This document shows, piece after piece, positions 8,250-23,686 of a DNA stretch of 40,903 nucleotides (positions within the stretch are counted from its first letter, which is position 1; each line of letters begins with the position of its first letter). The notes beneath the pieces were generated by a model. It was not told the origin of the DNA. It searched no databases and saw only the letters and a program-made list of their open reading frames with translations. Position numbers and translations under genes: made by a program. The DNA is from a virus, in IMG/VR virus record IMGVR_UViG_3300048837_001683, positions 1 through 40,903 of that record; one strand, given 5' to 3'.

Positions 8250-8653
8250 TCCAGTGCGGCCTCGACTTCGAGCGCGTCGAGCGTGCGGAGCGCGCCGACA
8301 CGCAGGCGCAGCACCTCGCTCGCGTCTCCGACGCGCTCGCCCCGCGCATCGTCGCGTGGGCGCTCGAGCGCATCGGGCAGGAGTTCCACGCGGACGAGCT
8401 CCGCGAGGCCGTGGGCGGCGCGCCGGCGAGCGCGGACCGGGTGCTCCGCGACCTCCGGCGACGAGGCGTCGTCGGCTACGCGTGCAAGAGCCGTCGGGCG
8501 TCGCTCTACGTGATCCGCTTCGTGCGCCCCGAGCTGCTCGACGCACCGCTCCCCGAGCAGCCCGATCGGATGCGTGAGCGACGCGCGCGCCTGCTCGAGC
8601 AGATCGCGCAGATCGACGCCGCGCTCCGCGCGGCAGAAGGCGAGGCCGCGTGA
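8246..8653 (+). CDS. Winged-helix-like DNA-binding protein (135 aa)
   Basis: Residues 28-85 read as a winged helix: IVAWALERIGQEFHADEL, then GGAPASADRVLRDLRRRG as recognition region and VVGYACKSRRASLYVIRF as wing. The C-terminal 35 residues form a coiled coil (RMRERRARLLEQIAQIDAAL). It is directly upstream of the replication gene and overlaps it by four bases, so it may regulate or help replication. The fold is inferred from pattern only. Confidence 0.5.
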   Translation: MIQCGLDFERVERAERADTQAQHLARVSDALAPRIVAWALERIGQEFHADELREAVGGAPASADRVLRDLRRRGVVGYACKSRRASLYVIRFVRPELLDAPLPEQPDRMRERRARLLEQIAQIDAALRAAEGEAA

Positions 8654-9699
8654 CCTGGGCGAAGATCGACGACCGGGCGCCGCAGCACCCGAAGCTGCTG
8701 CAGGCTGGACCCGAGGCGTGCTGGATGTGGGTCGCTGGGCTCTGCTACGCGAACGCCCACACCACCGACGGCCTCGTGCCGAGCTACGCGCTGCTCGCTC
8801 TCTCGCCCGGATCGTGGCCGGAGAAGCGCGCGCGAGCTCTCGCCGACCGCCTCGTGGAAGTCGGACTCTGGCACCGCGAAGGCGACGCGGGCTGGCGAAT
8901 CCACGACTACGAGGACCACCAAGAGCCCGCGATGAAGAGCGAAGTGGAGCGCCGTAAGGCGCTCACTCGCGAACGGAAGCGACGCCAGCGACGTCGAGAA
9001 CGCGGGGAACCGGAGGATGGTCACGCACCCGTCACGCGTGACAGTCACGCACCCGTCACGCGTGACAACGAGCGTGACGGGCCGCGTGACACCCAGCGTG
9101 ACGTGCCACGTGACGCAGCGGGTGACGTGCGCGGTGACGCGTCCGTCGATGTCACGCCCCCCCGGCCCGTCCCGACCCGGCCCGTCCCGATCTCTCCTTC
9201 GGAGAGTGATCGCGCACCCGCGCAAGACCCCGAGGAGATGAACCCGGCCCGTGTGTGGCGCGCCCTCGACGAGGCCTGGTTCGAGGCCTTCGCCGAGCGC
9301 CTGCCGGGCTGCTGGAGCCCGCTCTTCCGAGCCGACGCCGAGGCTGTGCTCGAGCGCTGCGGAGGGACCGCCGCGGGCGTGCAGGCCGAGGTGCAGGGCT
9401 ACGTGCGTTGGGCTCGCACGCGCGACGTCCGGCCGGCGGAGCCCTGGCGGAAGTTCTTCGGATCGATCGGGAGCTGGGCGTCTCGCCTCGAGGGCGACAA
9501 GGCACGCGCGAAGGCGGGCGCGCGGCAACGCGAGCGCATCGCCGCCGAGCGCCACTTGAAGCCCGCGAGCAACGGCACACCGGACGCGGCGGAGACCGAT
9601 CGGAAGCTCGCGAAGGTAGCGCCTCCGGCCTCCGAGATCGTGCCCCTCGGCGAAGCCGCTGCGGGCGTCCTCGCGACCCTTCGTGGAGGTGGTGCGTGA
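8650..9699 (+). CDS. Phage replication initiator, lambda O-like organisation (349 aa)
   Basis: The N-terminal domain (TWAKIDDRAPQHPKLLQAG...WMWVAGLCYAN...TDGLVP) is the winged-helix type found in phage replication proteins. Residues 123-163 are a low-complexity linker of 4-residue units (RD/GD-x-x) encoded by the iteron array. The C-terminal domain from residue 197 (MNPARVWRALDEAWFEAF) is helical and may contact host helicase or loader. No helicase or primase gene is visible, so host enzymes are probably recruited. GTG start at 8650 in a GTGA overlap. Confidence 0.7.
   Translation: MTWAKIDDRAPQHPKLLQAGPEACWMWVAGLCYANAHTTDGLVPSYALLALSPGSWPEKRARALADRLVEVGLWHREGDAGWRIHDYEDHQEPAMKSEVERRKALTRERKRRQRRRERGEPEDGHAPVTRDSHAPVTRDNERDGPRDTQRDVPRDAAGDVRGDASVDVTPPRPVPTRPVPISPSESDRAPAQDPEEMNPARVWRALDEAWFEAFAERLPGCWSPLFRADAEAVLERCGGTAAGVQAEVQGYVRWARTRDVRPAEPWRKFFGSIGSWASRLEGDKARAKAGARQRERIAAERHLKPASNGTPDAAETDRKLAKVAPPASEIVPLGEAAAGVLATLRGGGA
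9020..9138 (+). repeat. 12-bp iteron array, candidate replication origin inside the initiator gene
   Basis: GTGAC occurs at 9038, 9062, 9074, 9086, 9098, 9110, 9122 and 9134: an exact 12-base phase with one missing position at 9050. The left part is two tandem 24-base units (9020-9043, 9044-9067), which also carry the inverted motif GTCAC. The array lies in the middle of the initiator gene, as the lambda origin lies in O. A second tandem, CCCGGCCCGTCCCGA twice at 9161-9190, follows. No clear AT-rich unwinding region is seen. Confidence 0.65.
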
Positions 9700-10310
9700 T
9701 CGTCTGCGACGAATGCGAGGCGCGGACCCGTCAGCCGATCCCGGCGGACTGGCTCGTCGTGTGGCTCCCGGAGATCCGGTCGTGGGGTCACCTCTGCCCC
9801 GAGCACCGGACCGACAGCGGGCTCATGCGCCCCGTGCTGCCTCCCGTCCCGGAGGCCTCCGTGCTGGCTCCACGCGCCGCGCGCGTCAACGAGCCGCTCT
9901 TCGCCCCTGCCCCCGTGCAACCGCGCGGGTCGGACGCGCCGGCGTCCGCTGTCGACGCGCACGTTGGGCGTGACCGTCGGGACGCCGGCGCGATCCGGCC
10001 ACCTGTCGACTTGGCGCAGAGCCTCGAGCAGACCCTCGAGGAAGCGTTCCGTGACGAGCTCGGGCTCCCGAAGCTCGAGAGCGACCGGGAATATTCTTCG
10101 ACCGATTCCGACAGGCCCATCCTCTGCGACACCGAGGATCTCTCGTGTCCTGAGGCCGATCCGGCCAAGTCCAGCCCGGGAATAGTTTGCCCGCCGCGTC
10201 TCATCGAGCCCGCGCCGTTCGTCGACGTCTACGACCGACCGCCACTGCCGCGCGCGCTGCGTGAGCAGACCGAGATGGGCTGGCGTGTCTCCGGGTGGGG
10301 TGCGGCATGA
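9696..10310 (+). CDS. Hypothetical protein with N-terminal Cys/His motif (204 aa)
   Basis: The start has CDEC (residues 4-7) and, about 26 residues on, CPEH, a possible zinc knuckle. The rest is Pro-rich and probably largely disordered (VPPVPEASVLAPRAARV region), with a helix near LAQSLEQTLEEAFRDELG. GTG at 9696 overlaps the replication gene stop, and its own stop overlaps the RuvC-like start. A role next to replication is suggested by position only. The stretch near 10090-10190 has more A and T than its surroundings. Confidence 0.5.
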   Translation: MIVCDECEARTRQPIPADWLVVWLPEIRSWGHLCPEHRTDSGLMRPVLPPVPEASVLAPRAARVNEPLFAPAPVQPRGSDAPASAVDAHVGRDRRDAGAIRPPVDLAQSLEQTLEEAFRDELGLPKLESDREYSSTDSDRPILCDTEDLSCPEADPAKSSPGIVCPPRLIEPAPFVDVYDRPPLPRALREQTEMGWRVSGWGAA

Positions 10311-10984
10311 AGCGCCCTCGGCTCCCCGCGACCTCGAGGCCGTGGCCGGTGGTAATCCTTGCGATCGACCCGGGCGCGACCTCGGGCTGGTGCGTGCTGG
10401 TGCCGGAGGCGCAGCACCGCGCGCTCCGCGTCGAAGCTGGCGTCGCGAAGACCACGCCGCAACGCGAGGCGTGCGTGCAGCTTGCGGTGACGACCGCGGC
10501 CGAGCGTGAGCGCGTCCTCGTCGTCGTTGCGGAGACCTGGCGTGTGCCCGCGCCCAAGCCGGGCGAGGCGCGGCCGGGGGAGAAGCGTCGCCCCTTCGGT
10601 GCGCAGACCGCGGCGGGGCTCGGTGCGAACTGGGGGCGCTGGCTCGCGGAGCTCGAGCGCGCAGCCATCCGCGCGAGCTCGGTCATTCGAGTCGACACCG
10701 GCACGTGGCGCGCGCGGGTCCTCGGCTACCCGAAGCGACGCCCCACGGAGGCGTGGAAGCGGGCTGCGCTGGCGCGCGCGGCGACCGTGACGAGCGCCGA
10801 GCTCGCGCACGATGCGGCCGAGGCCGTGTGCATCGCGCTCTGGGCACAGATCGCAGGCGAGGTCGGCCTCGCGCTGCCGGCGGCGACCCTCCGCGCGGCG
10901 CTCGCGCGCCCCGAGGACGCGGACCTCCTCGCCGAGCTCGAGCGCCGTCGAGGCCTCGCACCCACGACCACGCGGCCGCGCTGA
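10307..10984 (+). CDS. RuvC-like Holliday-junction resolvase (225 aa)
   Basis: The RNase H-fold motifs are in order: AIDPGATSGWCV (Asp21), VVVAETWRV (Glu76) and HDAAEAVCIALWA (Asp169, Glu172), matching the acidic active site of RuvC. Phage enzymes of this type resolve branched DNA in replication, recombination or before packaging. The protein is longer than RuvC (about 170 residues), with an extra basic segment after Glu76 (KPGEARPGEKRRP). The ATG at 10307 overlaps the previous stop (ATGA); in-frame GTG 10295 is less likely. Confidence 0.7.
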   Translation: MKRPRLPATSRPWPVVILAIDPGATSGWCVLVPEAQHRALRVEAGVAKTTPQREACVQLAVTTAAERERVLVVVAETWRVPAPKPGEARPGEKRRPFGAQTAAGLGANWGRWLAELERAAIRASSVIRVDTGTWRARVLGYPKRRPTEAWKRAALARAATVTSAELAHDAAEAVCIALWAQIAGEVGLALPAATLRAALARPEDADLLAELERRRGLAPTTTRPR

Positions 10985-11012
10985 GGACGCACGGCCGCAG
11001 GAGGAGCCACCG

Positions 11013-12893
11013 ATGGAGACCACGACCGAACCCAAGAAGCCGAAGAAGCCACGCAAGAGCGCGGCCGAGGTAGCCGCCGAAACGGGGACCCTGAGACCCG
11101 ACCTCCCCGCGAAGGGCGCCCCGAAAGCGGCGAACGGCTTCAAGGCGAAGCCGAAGACCGAGACGCTCGAGGACGAGCTCGCCGACATGGCCCGCGAGCT
11201 CGGCAACCCACCGCCTCGGCCGAAGGGGCGGTCCGAGGTCATCCGGCTCGACGCACTCGACGTCTACCCGCGCAACCCTCGCGGACCGATCCGCGAAGAG
11301 GACGTGGTCGAGCTCATGAGCGACATCGGGACGCACGGGCAGCTCCACGAGCTCACCGTGCGGCCCAAGCGGGGCGAGCGAGGTGAGGAGCGCTGGGAGG
11401 TGCTCGCCGGAGCCCGCCGGCGCCTCGCGATGATCTTGGGCGGGCACACCACGGCGCGCTGCTGGGTGCTCGACGGCTGCGACGACGACACGGCCCGCGA
11501 GATCGTGCTCACCGAGAACGCGCAGCGCGAAGACATCCACCCGCTCGACGAGGCGGACTCGATCCGCGAGCTCATGGAGCTGAAGGGGAGCGCGGAGGCC
11601 GTCGCAGCCCGGCTCGGCAAGACGGTCGCCCACGTCCACGGGCGGCTGCGGCTGGCGGGCCTCGGAGCCGAGGGCCGCGAGGCCTTCCGCGCGGGCGAGC
11701 TCACCTTCGGTGTCGCGGCCGCGCTCGCGCGCTTCGACGAGCCCACGCAAGCGAGGGCGCTCCGGGAAGGGCGCGCGGCGTGGCCTCCGAGGCCTCCTGG
11801 AGAGCCGATCCCGTCGGCGAGCATCACGAGCGCGCTCGTGCGCGCCGCGCTGCTGCTGAGCGGCGCGAAGTTCCCGCTCGACGTCGTGCCGGACGCGAAG
11901 GGGACGCGCGGAGCCTGCACGACGTGCATGCACCGGACGGGCGCTCAAACCGAGCTCTTCGCCGACGCCCTCGCCGCCACCAAAGACGACCGATGCGTCG
12001 ACCACGCGTGCTGGGACGCGAAGAACGCGTGGTGGTTCGCGGAGCTCGCGGCGAAGGCGAAGGAGCAGGGCGCCACGGTCAAGAAGAAGCTCGACGCGAA
12101 GGCCTACGCGGGCACGCCGCTCTGGAACGGCTCCGACCTCCGCACCGCGGACTACGTCCCCGCCGACGCGCCCGCGAACCACGGGCACACCTGGGATCGC
12201 ATCAAGAGCGGCAACCGCGAGCTGACGTGGTCGCAGGCGCACAAGAAGGCGTTCGGCGAGCCGATCCCGGCGACCGAGATCACGGTGACGCTGGACGGCA
12301 CGGGCGCGCCTCGTGAAGTCATCAAGGAGAGCCTCGCGAAGCGCATCCGATCCGCGTTCAAGAAGGGGGAGACCGGCGGCGACACGCAGCCCGACTCGTA
12401 CGCTCAGCAGGAGAAGAAGCGTCGCGAGAAGGAGAAGATCCAGCGCGCGGTGCTTCGGGCTGTACAGGATGCGGCGATCCAGAAGGCGCGCAGCGTCGAT
12501 CTGACCGAGGCGGAGGTGTTCGGCCCCGGCGGACTGCTGCGACCGCTCGCGCTGCTCGCCCTCGACCGCTTGGACAGCCCGACACTCGTGGACCTCGGGA
12601 TCCGCGAGTGCCAGAGCTACCTGGAGAGGCACAAGGCGCTCGTCGAGCACGTCGCATCCGTGAAGAGCGACGAAGAGCTCGTGCGACTGCTGCTCGTCGG
12701 GCTTCTCGTCCGAACGTTCAGCCGCGACCGCACCGAGGAGGGCGAATCGGCGCGTGCGGCCGCGCTCGAGCTGCTTGGGGTTGACGCTGACGCGATCAAG
12801 CGCGACGTCGAGGCCGCGGCGAAGAAGCCGAAGAAGGCCTCGTCGAAGACCATCGCAGCGACCACCGCGAAGCGAGGCAAGCGCAAGGCATGA
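11013..12893 (+). CDS. ParB/Spo0J-like nuclease-domain protein (626 aa)
   Basis: After a basic disordered N-terminus (KKPKKPRK), residues from about 75 form a ParB N-terminal domain: SEVIRLDALDVYPRNPRG, ELMSDIGTHGQLHELTV, then GARRRLAMIL and the diagnostic TENAQREDIHPLDEA. A helix-turn-helix region (AVAARLGKTVAHVHGRL) follows. A Cys-rich segment (ACTTCMHRTG ... DRCVDHACW) is likely to bind zinc. The end is Lys/Ala-rich. No ParA partner is present, so plasmid-style partition is unlikely; CTP-dependent DNA clamping, replication control or transcription regulation are options. The ATG at 11013 has a strong GCAGGAGGAGCC ribosome site. Confidence 0.75.
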   Translation: METTTEPKKPKKPRKSAAEVAAETGTLRPDLPAKGAPKAANGFKAKPKTETLEDELADMARELGNPPPRPKGRSEVIRLDALDVYPRNPRGPIREEDVVELMSDIGTHGQLHELTVRPKRGERGEERWEVLAGARRRLAMILGGHTTARCWVLDGCDDDTAREIVLTENAQREDIHPLDEADSIRELMELKGSAEAVAARLGKTVAHVHGRLRLAGLGAEGREAFRAGELTFGVAAALARFDEPTQARALREGRAAWPPRPPGEPIPSASITSALVRAALLLSGAKFPLDVVPDAKGTRGACTTCMHRTGAQTELFADALAATKDDRCVDHACWDAKNAWWFAELAAKAKEQGATVKKKLDAKAYAGTPLWNGSDLRTADYVPADAPANHGHTWDRIKSGNRELTWSQAHKKAFGEPIPATEITVTLDGTGAPREVIKESLAKRIRSAFKKGETGGDTQPDSYAQQEKKRREKEKIQRAVLRAVQDAAIQKARSVDLTEAEVFGPGGLLRPLALLALDRLDSPTLVDLGIRECQSYLERHKALVEHVASVKSDEELVRLLLVGLLVRTFSRDRTEEGESARAAALELLGVDADAIKRDVEAAAKKPKKASSKTIAATTAKRGKRKA

Positions 12894-13687
12894 CGCGGCG
12901 CTTGCGAGTGGAGCGCGGCGTAGGCTGGGAGCTCCGGTGCGGCGACTGGCGCGACGTCCTCGACGACGTCGCGCTCGTCGACGTGCTCCTCGGCGACCCG
13001 CCGTTCTCGCGACGCACGCACCAAGGACAGCGCACGGGCGGCAAGGATCCGCGCTACTCGAAGGACCGAGGCGCGGCCGCGCTCGCGTCCGCTGGTCTCG
13101 AGTACTGCGCGTGGAGCGACGACGACGTGCGCGAATACGTCGCCTCGTGGAGCCCTCGGGTGTCCGGGTGGCTCGCGGCGCTCACGTCACACGACCTCGT
13201 GCCGGCGTGGGAGCGCGCGACCCTCGACGGCGATCGCTACCCCTTCGCCCCCATCGCCTGCACGCAGCACGCGCGCAACGTCCGCCTCACCGGCGACGGG
13301 CCGAGCTCGTGGAGTGACTACCTCGTGCCGGCGCGGCCGCGCTCGGTCGAGTGGCTCCGCGAGCGGCGCCGGCGACGTCGACTCGCGGGCCTCCCATGTG
13401 CGCTGCCGGGCGCCTACTACGGGCCGAGCTTCGACACCGGTGAGAACGCGCTCGACCGAAGCGCTCGAGCGGTGCGAGGAGCGAAGCCGCTGTGGCTCAT
13501 GCGCGCGCTCGTCGTGGACTACAGCGAGCCCGGCGACCTGCTCGTCGACCCCACCGCCGGCGGTGGAACGACGCTCGTTGCTGCGGTGCTCGAGGGGCGC
13601 CGGGCCATCGGCGCCGAGCGTGACGAGTCGACGTGGACGAAGGCGGTCGCGCGGCTGCGCGCCGTGGACGAACGGAGGGCTGCTTGA
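12890..13687 (+). CDS. DNA methyltransferase, N4-cytosine/N6-adenine class (265 aa)
   Basis: The catalytic motif DPPF (residues 36-39) comes first and the SAM-binding motif DPTAGGGTT (from 220) last, the order of beta-type amino-methyltransferases. The final segment AVLEGRRAIGAERDE matches the motif II region. Between them lies an Arg-rich target-recognition area. No restriction enzyme gene is adjacent, so it is an orphan methylase, probably protecting phage DNA from host restriction or marking sites for regulation. The specificity cannot be read from sequence. ATGA overlap with the ParB-like gene. Confidence 0.75.
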   Translation: MTRRLRVERGVGWELRCGDWRDVLDDVALVDVLLGDPPFSRRTHQGQRTGGKDPRYSKDRGAAALASAGLEYCAWSDDDVREYVASWSPRVSGWLAALTSHDLVPAWERATLDGDRYPFAPIACTQHARNVRLTGDGPSSWSDYLVPARPRSVEWLRERRRRRRLAGLPCALPGAYYGPSFDTGENALDRSARAVRGAKPLWLMRALVVDYSEPGDLLVDPTAGGGTTLVAAVLEGRRAIGAERDESTWTKAVARLRAVDERRAA

Positions 13688-16470: not shown

Positions 16471-16473
16471 TTT

Positions 16474-16494
16474 GGGCGCAGCGGCGCTGCGCCC
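16474..16494 (+). promoter_or_regulatory. Late-unit inverted repeat, family 1 (copy a), before the portal gene
   Basis: GGGCGCAGC-GGC-GCTGCGCCC is a perfect 9-bp dyad (10 bp with the flanking T/A), starting three bases after the terminase stop and ending 22 bases before the GTG at 16517. GATAGT at 16505-16510 sits at -10 distance if transcription starts at the GTG. It may be an activator site at about -43 to -23, or a terminator/processing hairpin. No T tract follows. Confidence 0.5.
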
Positions 16495-16516
16495 ACACGC
16501 ACGGGATAGTCGGTCC

Positions 16517-17851
16517 GTGGCGGTGACGATCTACGACGCGCAAGGTCGTCCGATCGACTTGCGCGCGCTCCGCCGCGTCCACGTCGACGAGGACAAGCAG
16601 GTCGCTCACGGGCGACCAGCCGGATGGAGCGCATCCACGGAAAGCGTGAGCTCGGTGCTCACGCCCGAGCGTCTCGCGCGACTGTTGAAGAACGCGGACG
16701 GCGGCCACCTGCGCGACTACCTCACGCTCGCAGAGGAGATCGAGGAGCGCGACCTGCACTACCGCAGCGTGCTCGGCACGCGGCGTATGCGGATGACGGG
16801 GATCGTGCCCGCCGTGGAGCCCGCAGACGACTCCTCGAAGGAAGAGGGGATCGCCCAAGAGGTGCGGGATCTCGTATGGAGCCCGCGCTTCGCGCGCCTT
16901 GTGCACGGCATGATGGATGCGGTCTCGAAGGGGCTCTCGTTCGTCGAGATTCTCTGGGACGTGAGCGAAGGGCAGGCCATCCCCGTCGACTTCGTGTGGC
17001 GCGACCCGCGTTGGTATCGCGTCGACCCGCAACGCCTGCGGACTCTCCTCTTCGATGACGGTACGCCCGAAGGGCAGCCGCTCCCGGCCGGCAAGTACAT
17101 CATCCACGATCCGCAGCTGAAGTGCGGTCTTCCGATTCGTGCAGGCCTCGCGCGCCCGGTCTCGATCGCCTACGTGTTCAAGAGCTTCGACCTGCGTGGG
17201 CTCGCGCGGTTCCTGGAGGTCTACGGCATCCCCGCGAGGATCGGGCGATACCCGGTCGGGGCCTCCGACGACGACCAACGCCGGCTGCTGCGCGCGGTGA
17301 AGATCATGGGCAGCGATGCCGCGTGCATCGTCCCCGAAGACATGAACGTCGAGCTCGTGCAGCTGACGGGGCGCGTCGGCAGCGAGACGTTCCTCAGCGT
17401 CGCGACGTACTGGGATCGTCAGATCTCGAAGGCCGTTCTCGGGCAGACGTCGAGCTCCGAAGGGAGCGCGGGCGACTACAAGGCCAGCGCTGAGCACTCC
17501 GGCGTGCGCCTCGACATCGCGCAGCACGACGCACAGACGCTTCAGGCGACGATCATCGAGCAGTTGATCAAGCTCTACGTCGACGTGAACCACGGCGTTC
17601 GCAAGCGATACACCTCCGTCACGCTGAACGTGCCGAAGTCCGAAGATCTCTCGCGCTTCGCATCCGCGATTGTGCAACTCGTCGACCGCGGCCTCGAGGT
17701 CGATCAAGAGCAGGTGCGCGAGCGCATCGGCCTCGCTGCGCCCGAAGACGGCAAGGCTCTCCTGCGCCCCGCTGCGCAGCGCAAGAGCGACGACTCTGAT
17801 CGAGGGTCCGAGTCGCCGCCGCCGAGCGATTCGGGCGACGACGCGCGCTGA
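16517..17851 (+). CDS. Portal protein, Mu gp29 / DUF935 family (444 aa)
   Basis: The central part matches the Mu gp29 type: YLTLAEEIEERDLHYRSVLGTRR, DAVSKGLSFVEILWDV, WRDPRWYRVDP, GLARPVSIAYVFKSFDLRGLARFLEVYG, and SVATYWDRQISKAVLGQT. The portal forms the dodecameric ring at one capsid vertex through which DNA is packaged and released. The C-terminus is Ser/Asp-rich. The GTG at 16517 has no Shine-Dalgarno sequence and follows the inverted repeat at 16474. In Mu the next gene is the minor head protein F (gp30), but here none follows; the next gene is the protease. Confidence 0.9.
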   Translation: MAVTIYDAQGRPIDLRALRRVHVDEDKQVAHGRPAGWSASTESVSSVLTPERLARLLKNADGGHLRDYLTLAEEIEERDLHYRSVLGTRRMRMTGIVPAVEPADDSSKEEGIAQEVRDLVWSPRFARLVHGMMDAVSKGLSFVEILWDVSEGQAIPVDFVWRDPRWYRVDPQRLRTLLFDDGTPEGQPLPAGKYIIHDPQLKCGLPIRAGLARPVSIAYVFKSFDLRGLARFLEVYGIPARIGRYPVGASDDDQRRLLRAVKIMGSDAACIVPEDMNVELVQLTGRVGSETFLSVATYWDRQISKAVLGQTSSSEGSAGDYKASAEHSGVRLDIAQHDAQTLQATIIEQLIKLYVDVNHGVRKRYTSVTLNVPKSEDLSRFASAIVQLVDRGLEVDQEQVRERIGLAAPEDGKALLRPAAQRKSDDSDRGSESPPPSDSGDDAR

Positions 17852-22222: not shown

Positions 22223-23686
22223 ATGAGCTACGGCTTCCAGCAGATCCCCGTCCAGAACTTCAGCCCCGGCTTCCACGCCGAGCTCGCGTTCCGCCGCGCC
22301 GGCCTCGGGGCCGCGCCGCGCGACGCGCTCATCGTCGGCTACCTGCGCGACGGCGACACCGATCACGACCTCGAACCGATCGTCGTGCTCGGCGAGAGCG
22401 ACGCGCGGATCCCGCGCAAGAGCCAGCTCGCGGAGATGATCCGGTCGTTCCGCCGCGTGAACCTCACGTCGCGCATCACCGCGATCGGGCTCACGCCTCC
22501 GAGCGCCGGCACGGCGGCTGCCGGCACGCTCACGGTGACGGGGACGGCCACGGCGTCGGGCACCATCGTCGTCTACGTCGCCGGCAAGCGCATCGAGGTC
22601 GGCGTCACCTCCGGCGACACCAACGACGACGTCGCCGCGGCGATCGAGGCCGCGATCGACGCCGATCCCGACATCCCGATGACGTCGGCGGTGGGCGCCG
22701 ATCCGAACGAGCACGTCGTGACCGTCACGGCGAACTTCAAGGGCGTGGAGGGCAACCGGCTCCGTCTCGCGGTCGACCCGCTCGACACGGATCTCGGGGT
22801 CGCTGGGATCTCCATCGCCGTCGTGCAGCCCACCGGCGGCGCGGGGACGCCGGATCTCGACGACGCGATCGCGCTCGTCACGAGCGAGCGCTTCTACTCC
22901 GTGATCGTCGGCTTCTCCGACGCGACCTCGATCGGCGCGCTCGTCGACGAGATGGTTCGTCGCGAGGACGCGATGGTCGCGCTCGACGGCAAGGGCTTCC
23001 TCGGCATCCGCGGGACCTTCGCCGAGCAGATCACCGAGGCGGACGCCTACAACTCGCCCCTGATCTGCATCCTCGGCGCGGGCCCGAGCGTGACGCCCCC
23101 GTGGGTGCTCGCCTGCCTCGCCGCGGGGTGGGACTCGCGCAAGCCGCACCCGGTGCAGGGGTATCTCAACCTCCCGCTGCCCGGCTTCCTCGCGCCGTTC
23201 TCGCTCGCCGACCGGCCCGACAAGCCGGAACGTGACCTCTCGCTCGCCGCCGGCGTCTCGACCTGGCGCGTGAACGGATCGCAGGTCGTTCTCGACCAGC
23301 TCGTCACGACGCGGACCGAGGACGACTCGGCGAACCCCGACACGTCGCGGCTCCTGCTGACGTTGGGCCGCACCGCGGAAGCGCTCCGCTTCTCGTGGGT
23401 TGCGTCGCTGCAGAAGTTCGCGAACTTCGTGCTCGCCGACGCACCGGACCTCGCGACGCCGCCTCCGGGCGCGCCGATCCTCACGCCGAGCTCGCTGCGG
23501 TCGCACGCGATCGACTGGTTCATCCAGGTTCGCGACGGCCTCGGCCTCGTGCAGGACCTCGAGGCCTTCAAGGCCGAGCTCGACGCGCGCGTCAACGAGC
23601 TCGACCCGAACCGGCTCGACGCGTTCCTCCCGCCTCGCGTCACGCGTCAGCTCGTGACGATCGCCTCTCTCATCCAGATCCGGTGA
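22223..23686 (+). CDS. Tail sheath protein, Mu gpL-like (487 aa)
   Basis: The start VPVQNFSPGFHAE-like (IPVQNFSPGFHAE) and the body (ALIVGYLRDGD, RITAIGLTP, FYSVIVGFSDATSIGALVDEM, FAEQITEADAYNSPLICILG, PPWVLACLAAGW) and the C-terminus (AELDARVNELDPNRLDAFLPP...LVTIASLIQIR) are typical for contractile sheath proteins. Residues 95-215 contain an inserted beta domain. It forms the outer, contracting tail layer around the tube encoded next. ATG at 22223 follows GAGGAGACC. Confidence 0.9.
   Translation: MSYGFQQIPVQNFSPGFHAELAFRRAGLGAAPRDALIVGYLRDGDTDHDLEPIVVLGESDARIPRKSQLAEMIRSFRRVNLTSRITAIGLTPPSAGTAAAGTLTVTGTATASGTIVVYVAGKRIEVGVTSGDTNDDVAAAIEAAIDADPDIPMTSAVGADPNEHVVTVTANFKGVEGNRLRLAVDPLDTDLGVAGISIAVVQPTGGAGTPDLDDAIALVTSERFYSVIVGFSDATSIGALVDEMVRREDAMVALDGKGFLGIRGTFAEQITEADAYNSPLICILGAGPSVTPPWVLACLAAGWDSRKPHPVQGYLNLPLPGFLAPFSLADRPDKPERDLSLAAGVSTWRVNGSQVVLDQLVTTRTEDDSANPDTSRLLLTLGRTAEALRFSWVASLQKFANFVLADAPDLATPPPGAPILTPSSLRSHAIDWFIQVRDGLGLVQDLEAFKAELDARVNELDPNRLDAFLPPRVTRQLVTIASLIQIR

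Follow-up and report, generated by a model that had tools for sequence, protein, structure and literature searches.

The window analysed here, the whole 40,903-nt stretch of a virus record, carries a replication initiator gene with a repeat array between the codons for its DNA-binding domain and its C-terminal region (Table 1). The gene product matches PHROG 2447, 'replication initiation protein' (E 1.4e-29, residues 1-193), a profile match in which the name is an annotation, and gives a further profile match to PHROG 3926 (E 1.2e-21); searches of Pfam and NCBIfam matched no family. In an AlphaFold model based on an alignment of IMG/VR and genome loci, residues 1-121 have a mean pLDDT of 93.9 and comprise a winged-helix domain, predicted with confidence, and after it a long basic helix. 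Solved structures searched by sequence with the domain profile returned chance matches only, to carboxysome shell proteins. The C-terminal region would recruit replication proteins; a weak match to DnaT was found in 2 of 32 relatives (E 0.013 at best).

Table 1 Features of the candidate origin module and the gene that contains it (window positions)
Feature	Position	Strand	Description
Virus record IMGVR_UViG_3300048837_001683	1-40,903		71% GC
Replication initiator gene, holding the candidate origin module	8650..9699	+	GTG start, 349 aa; PHROG 2447, PHROG 3926
Winged-helix domain, codons 1-86	8650..8907	+	AlphaFold model; generic winged-helix matches, Z up to 8.8
Basic helix, codons 94-117	8929..9000	+	AlphaFold helix; putative recognition helix
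Linker, codons 121-200, encoded by the candidate origin module	9010..9249	+	mostly low-confidence, pLDDT about 40-68
Iteron array, 8 GTGAC and 5 GTCAC	9020..9155		word positions and synonymous-codon null
24-bp direct repeat copy 1, GTCACGCACCCGTCACGCGTGACA	9020..9043	+	
24-bp direct repeat copy 2	9044..9067	+	identical to copy 1
Palindrome GTCACGCGTGAC copy 1	9031..9042		perfect; one per 24-bp unit
Palindrome GTCACGCGTGAC copy 2	9055..9066		perfect
C-tract repeat (+ strand), G3N2-type repeat with G-quadruplex motif (- strand)	9157..9188	-	
Stem-loop CTCTCC-TTC-GGAGAG	9192..9206		
Helical C-terminal region, codons 224-303	9319..9558	+	predicted helices 224-236, 241-257 and 264-303

Elsewhere in the window, 16472-17851 encodes a portal protein of the Mu type (Pfam E 3.2e-86) and 22223-23686 a contractile tail sheath (PHROG 165); the virus is thus probably a myovirus. 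The gene at 10812-12893, 1.1 kb downstream of the initiator gene, encodes a ParB-like protein with an HTH_ParB domain, and directly downstream of it lies a gene (12890-13687) with a partial match to DNA methyltransferases.

The preliminary description had reported eight GTGAC motifs on an exact 12-base phase with one gap, and the word positions confirm this: the motifs start at 9038, 9062, 9074, 9086, 9098, 9110, 9122 and 9134, all in one 12-bp phase whose single empty slot falls at 9050. The two 24-base direct repeats that it placed at the left of the array are likewise present and identical. It overlooked five copies of the reverse complement GTCAC, starting at 9020, 9031, 9044, 9055 and 9151, and the two palindromes. 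Within the palindrome GTCAC is followed by GTGAC at an offset of 7, a spacing common among relatives in both coding and noncoding DNA. The range originally given for the array, 9020-9190, holds as far as 9155; positions 9157-9190 belong to a separate C-tract repeat. An Rfam search gave sub-threshold microRNA families only, most of them over the palindromic repeats.

As had also been noted, the array is in frame within the gene and encodes a four-residue repeat, (R/G)Dxx, in the linker. It is not only a protein repeat, because the GTCAC copies are read in other frames: GGT CAC gives GH, GTC ACG gives VT and xGT GAC gives RD or GD. When the same 48 residues were recoded synonymously with the phage's own codon usage, 100,000 recodings held on average 3.7 words and at most 10, compared with the 13 seen, and the best count of any 5-bp word was at most 12 in 20,000 recodings. 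The Arg codon in every RD pair is CGT, which makes up only 13% of this phage's Arg codons. Since the words exceed the recoding null, a protein repeat alone does not explain the DNA repeat; the DNA of the array is constrained beyond the protein.

Relatives of the gene occur in many phages of actinobacteria. A tblastn search identified 97 phage records, all from actinobacterial phages, and profile scans contributed the best 80 of 217 IMG/VR matches together with 39 loci from bacterial genomes. The set used for comparison comprises 123 loci of non-identical sequence, including 11 annotated phages and the window, most of them in phages of actinobacteria; grouped at 70% identity of the DNA-binding domain, they form 78 clusters. 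Gudmit, BritBrat, Cerasum, G4, Warren and others encode members of the same PHROG 2447 family, annotated as 'replication initiation protein' or 'RepA-like replication initiator', and no annotation of an origin module was found in the stretches examined. A search of plasmids yielded two distant relatives of the initiator domain only, in the plasmid records NZ_CP108596.1 (H61) from Streptomyces and NZ_CP031143.1 (H62) from Saccharopolyspora.

Many of the 123 relatives, like the window, have a word cluster immediately 3' of the part that encodes the DNA-binding domain. At least three GTCAC/GTGAC words occur in 20 of the 78 cluster representatives versus 10 of 2404 flank windows (Fisher P 2e-24), and at least three GTTAC/GTAAC words in 12 of 78 versus 0 of 2404 (Fisher P 4e-19). 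The repeat word is clade-specific, with CGAAC, GGGAC, TGCCA and TTGCT among those of other clades, and some relatives have no obvious word. These pooled tests against flanks were used because a per-locus test of any enriched 5-mer is weak (P<0.01 at 20 of 120 loci, P<0.05 at 46 of 120). Among coding relatives GTCAC is found in all three frames and GTGAC in two, the third giving a TGA stop, and the same words encode different peptides from one relative to another.

Several relatives have a truncated gene, which stops immediately past the DNA-binding domain. Two of them, Propionibacterium phage G4 (L010) and L079, have the word cluster beyond the stop codon, in L025 the cluster straddles the stop, and the C-tract repeat is noncoding, after the stop codon, in L010, L025, L067 and L079. 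These truncated relatives keep the module in noncoding DNA, and translation of the element is therefore not needed. Same-orientation words in coding relatives are spaced at 12 bp in 28 cases and at 11 bp in 5, compared with 2 and 4 in noncoding relatives (Fisher P 0.018, from few cases), a pattern suggestive of a 12-bp step that is partly set by codons and rounds about one helical turn. In the short initiators of Liefie, Sarge and Sonali (L009, L012 and L013), ATGCG, CGTTCC and GCATTGC are repeated after the stop codon, and the gap that follows the stop is free of the C-tract repeat. An imperfect inverted pair, CAATCAATCGTC ... GACGACTGATTG, is present about 100-200 bp past the stop codon of the short initiator in L012, L079 and L087, downstream of the module in these noncoding relatives.

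Immediately 3' of the words come CCC tracts: four or more of them, at steps of 5-7 nt, were found in 88 of 123 loci versus 15 of 1147 control windows, corresponding to 57 of the 78 clusters; 35 of the 123 loci are without four C-tracts. The tracts mostly read (CCCGA/T/G)n, with a 6-nt period in some relatives (CCCGTA, CCCGAA, CCCCGT) and CCCAA in Cerasum. Because relatives differ in the period and sequence of their tracts, the encoded peptide varies and the tract pattern is kept. The G version on the same strand occurs twice. Conversely, when IMG/VR was searched for (CCCGN)4CCC, 42 of 82 occurrences followed the initiator domain on the expected strand. Support for the tracts rests on the family, because the window copy taken by itself is only mildly unexpected given its peptide (P 0.014 by synonymous recoding).

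The window tract contains at least four GGG runs with short loops, as in a G-quadruplex motif, and its predicted energy is -31.9 kcal/mol with a G-quadruplex versus -14.3 kcal/mol without one (ViennaRNA, RNA parameters). A hairpin with a stem of at least 6 bp follows within 60 bp 3' of the tracts in 28 of the 57 representatives with a C-tract, versus 5.4% of control windows, and in 18 of 42 held-out loci, versus 6.2%. Hairpin stems vary, and certain loops recur: C(TAAC)G, C(TAAA)G, C(TGAC)G and C(TAC)G. At the level of sequence, the family thus conserves a three-part layout of words, C-tract repeat and hairpin. The module has no AT-rich stretch, local GC being 0.62-0.78 from 8900 to 9530, and a G-quadruplex or i-motif could help the opening of such GC-rich DNA; a site of sequence-specific binding to single strands would explain the tracts equally well. 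No description of a G-tract/hairpin module was found in the literature searched, which covered few subscription journals.

We next consider which part of the protein follows the repeat word. For pairs of loci of similar overall identity, domain residues were compared according to whether they differ when the word class differs, with labels permuted among the 70% clusters (1000 permutations); the word count was restricted to DNA 3' of aligned codon 114. Five columns track the word, namely 108 (z 17.9), 107 (9.4), 104 (9.3), 111 (8.5) and 112 (8.4); the next-best column reaches z 3.8 and the maximum under the null is 6.0. All five face the same side of the basic helix, with spacing i, i+3, i+4, i+7, i+8. 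In a Val-anchored register, loci with GTCAC typically carry ARQAR or ARQSR at these positions, those with GTTAC carry NRQWR/NRQYR or TRVHR, and those with CGAAC carry ARMLR. The helix of the window reads TRKQR in that register, close to the NRKQR of one GTCAC member, and A104 R107 E108 R111 R112 in the automatic alignment, so that its register is ambiguous.

Most well-defined held-out loci, less than 70% identical to the first set, fit this code. Several agree, including CGAAC with ARMIR, ARMVR and SRMLR, GTCAC with ARQAR, ARQHR and QRQSR, and GTTAC with NRQFR and TRVWR; the exceptions are mostly loci with two or three words only. Shared ancestry can yield covariation of this kind, a concern lessened but not removed by the identity-binned pairs, the permutation among clusters and the held-out loci. 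One short helix appears to set which repeat word is recognised, and the covariation supports the view that the protein encoded by the gene binds the array. The base-contacting residues of the bZIP protein GCN4 (N235, A238, A239, S242 and R243) have the same i, i+3, i+4, i+7, i+8 spacing as the five tracking positions. We draw this comparison with bZIP proteins such as GCN4 and CREB as an analogy, with no claim of homology; any straight helix in the major groove gives such spacing. Unlike in bZIP proteins, the window helix is joined to a winged-helix domain and no zipper is predicted: the helix ends at 117 and is followed by a low-confidence linker without predicted helix to 198.

We consider it highly likely that 9020-9206 is a replication origin or its initiator-binding core, with words read by the helix, opening of adjacent DNA and recruitment by the C-terminal region. 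Very probably, the protein binds these repeats as its sites, and together they make up a phage replication origin that lies within the protein's own gene. As expected of an iteron-type origin, short repeats exceed chance and hold a conserved place beside the initiator's DNA-binding domain. The earlier proposal of iterons inside an initiator gene thus gains support from the PHROG 2447 match, from word clusters at the same place in relatives and from a single helix that tracks the word. Cumulative GC skew has no turning point near 9 kb.

Binding, the origin role, its direction and what the G-tract repeat and hairpin do are inferred from these patterns, as follows. The N-terminal winged-helix domain and the basic helix would bind the GTGAC/GTCAC words, about one helical turn apart, as an ordered array. 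The bound protein array may then open or remodel the adjacent DNA at the C-tract/G-tract repeat and hairpin, the putative site of strand opening or primosome entry, and the C-terminal region would recruit a helicase, a primase or other host replication proteins. The linker peptide would be largely a by-product of origin DNA. More tentatively, the module may exemplify a class of iteron origins in which a G-quadruplex/C-tract repeat and hairpin take the place of an AT-rich element in strand opening and a bZIP-like helix carries a five-residue code, all within the initiator gene and widespread in high-GC phages; such a class is possible but doubtful.

Three other explanations of the array were weighed. 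It might be a feature of the protein, a charged, disordered RDxx linker expanded by slippage and devoid of DNA function, as its reading frame, the four-residue repeat in a low-confidence linker and the two identical 24-bp units would allow. However, the word count exceeds that of synonymous recoding, the word, read in other frames, gives GH, VT or GD, the peptides that these words encode differ among relatives and the word persists in the noncoding DNA of truncated relatives, which makes this account extremely improbable. A parS-like centromere for the nearby ParB-like protein is very unlikely. The proximity of that gene is in its favour, as are the direct-repeat parS sites of mycobacteriophages, one of which lies just downstream of repA (PMC7157519), but three phages with the same array (Gudmit, Cerasum and BritBrat) have no annotated ParB within about 2 kb, and it is a helix of the initiator that the word tracks.

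An operator or autoregulatory site, at which the bound protein represses transcription or blocks RNA polymerase with the origin located elsewhere, would also account for the covariation if the same protein bound it, and C-rich RNA followed by a hairpin could serve in transcription termination. Against this, the array sits in the middle of a gene and not at a promoter, a scan of 8500-9900 detected neither promoter-like nor intrinsic-terminator-like sites, and an initiator gene that contains many tandem sites fits the in-gene origins already described. We judge an operator in place of an origin to be unlikely; autoregulation is compatible with an origin role, and the array could serve both at once.

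The reading of the array as an in-gene origin has precedents. The initiators of lambda-type phages bind about 19-bp iterons accompanied by an AT-rich unwinding region. The comparison with lambda made in the preliminary description holds for in-gene placement, which lambda O shares with the window initiator, but the window words are 5 bp long and spaced at about 12 bp, no AT-rich stretch surrounds the module, and the window protein matches no Pfam O-protein domain. By analogy, the closest described organisation is that of pSK41 and the RepA_N replicons rather than lambda O. In the RepA_N plasmid pSK41, Rep boxes in the central part of rep are bound by the N-terminal winged-helix domain of the initiator, about 120 residues long; the central domain, which the origin encodes, serves as a linker that can be dispensed with, and the C-terminal domain makes contact with DnaG primase (PMC5703833). 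As in pSK41 and pTZ2162, where the repeats are central in rep and an origin-encoded linker precedes a separate C-terminal domain, the window array lies between the codons for the N- and C-terminal parts of the initiator.

Described RepA_N iterons converge on poly-A tracts (PMC7145576), whereas the window has 5-bp words followed by a C-tract/G-tract repeat, and an added basic helix that tracks the word. The window model aligns with the RepA_N structures 4pql, 4pt7, 5kbj and 4pta over 83-84 residues at Z 7.1-7.5, no higher than many unrelated winged helices, and PF06970 matches neither the window protein (E<=0.05) nor 32 family members (E<=0.1). The initiator would thus work like that of a RepA_N replicon, with membership of that family lacking sequence support. 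For the mycobacteriophages Miko and Rachaly, whose RepA has a predicted HTH, Wetzel and colleagues suspected that the origin lies within repA or a short way upstream, and, in contrast to the array in the window, found no repeats there (PMC7157519).

In-gene iteron origins are already known. If the origin reading is true, it would provide a compact origin module for many actinobacterial phages whose origins appear undescribed, along with a protein-to-DNA recognition code in which a single gene holds the codons of the five helix residues and the 5-bp word within a few dozen bases of each other. Such a code could account for incompatibility groups, and the truncated relatives would constitute a natural experiment that separates DNA from protein constraint. 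Furthermore, the module would offer a candidate G-quadruplex strand-opening element in prokaryotic viruses, at GC-rich origins without an obvious AT-rich unwinding region.

Tract repeats also occur in other phage genes. In L153, L155, L156, L158, L202, L207 and L212, which come from the IMG/VR scan for (CCCGN)4CCC, a distantly related N-terminal domain is followed by an HNH-type region, and a G-tract repeat lies on the coding strand near the 3' end of the gene, in the orientation opposite to that of the PHROG 2447-type initiator family. Two other initiator-like phage genes, L137 and L165, have C-tract/G-tract repeats in their linkers. Just upstream of its tract repeat, L165 carries repeated words of the type GATGCAAA, and the association may therefore extend beyond the PHROG 2447-type family.
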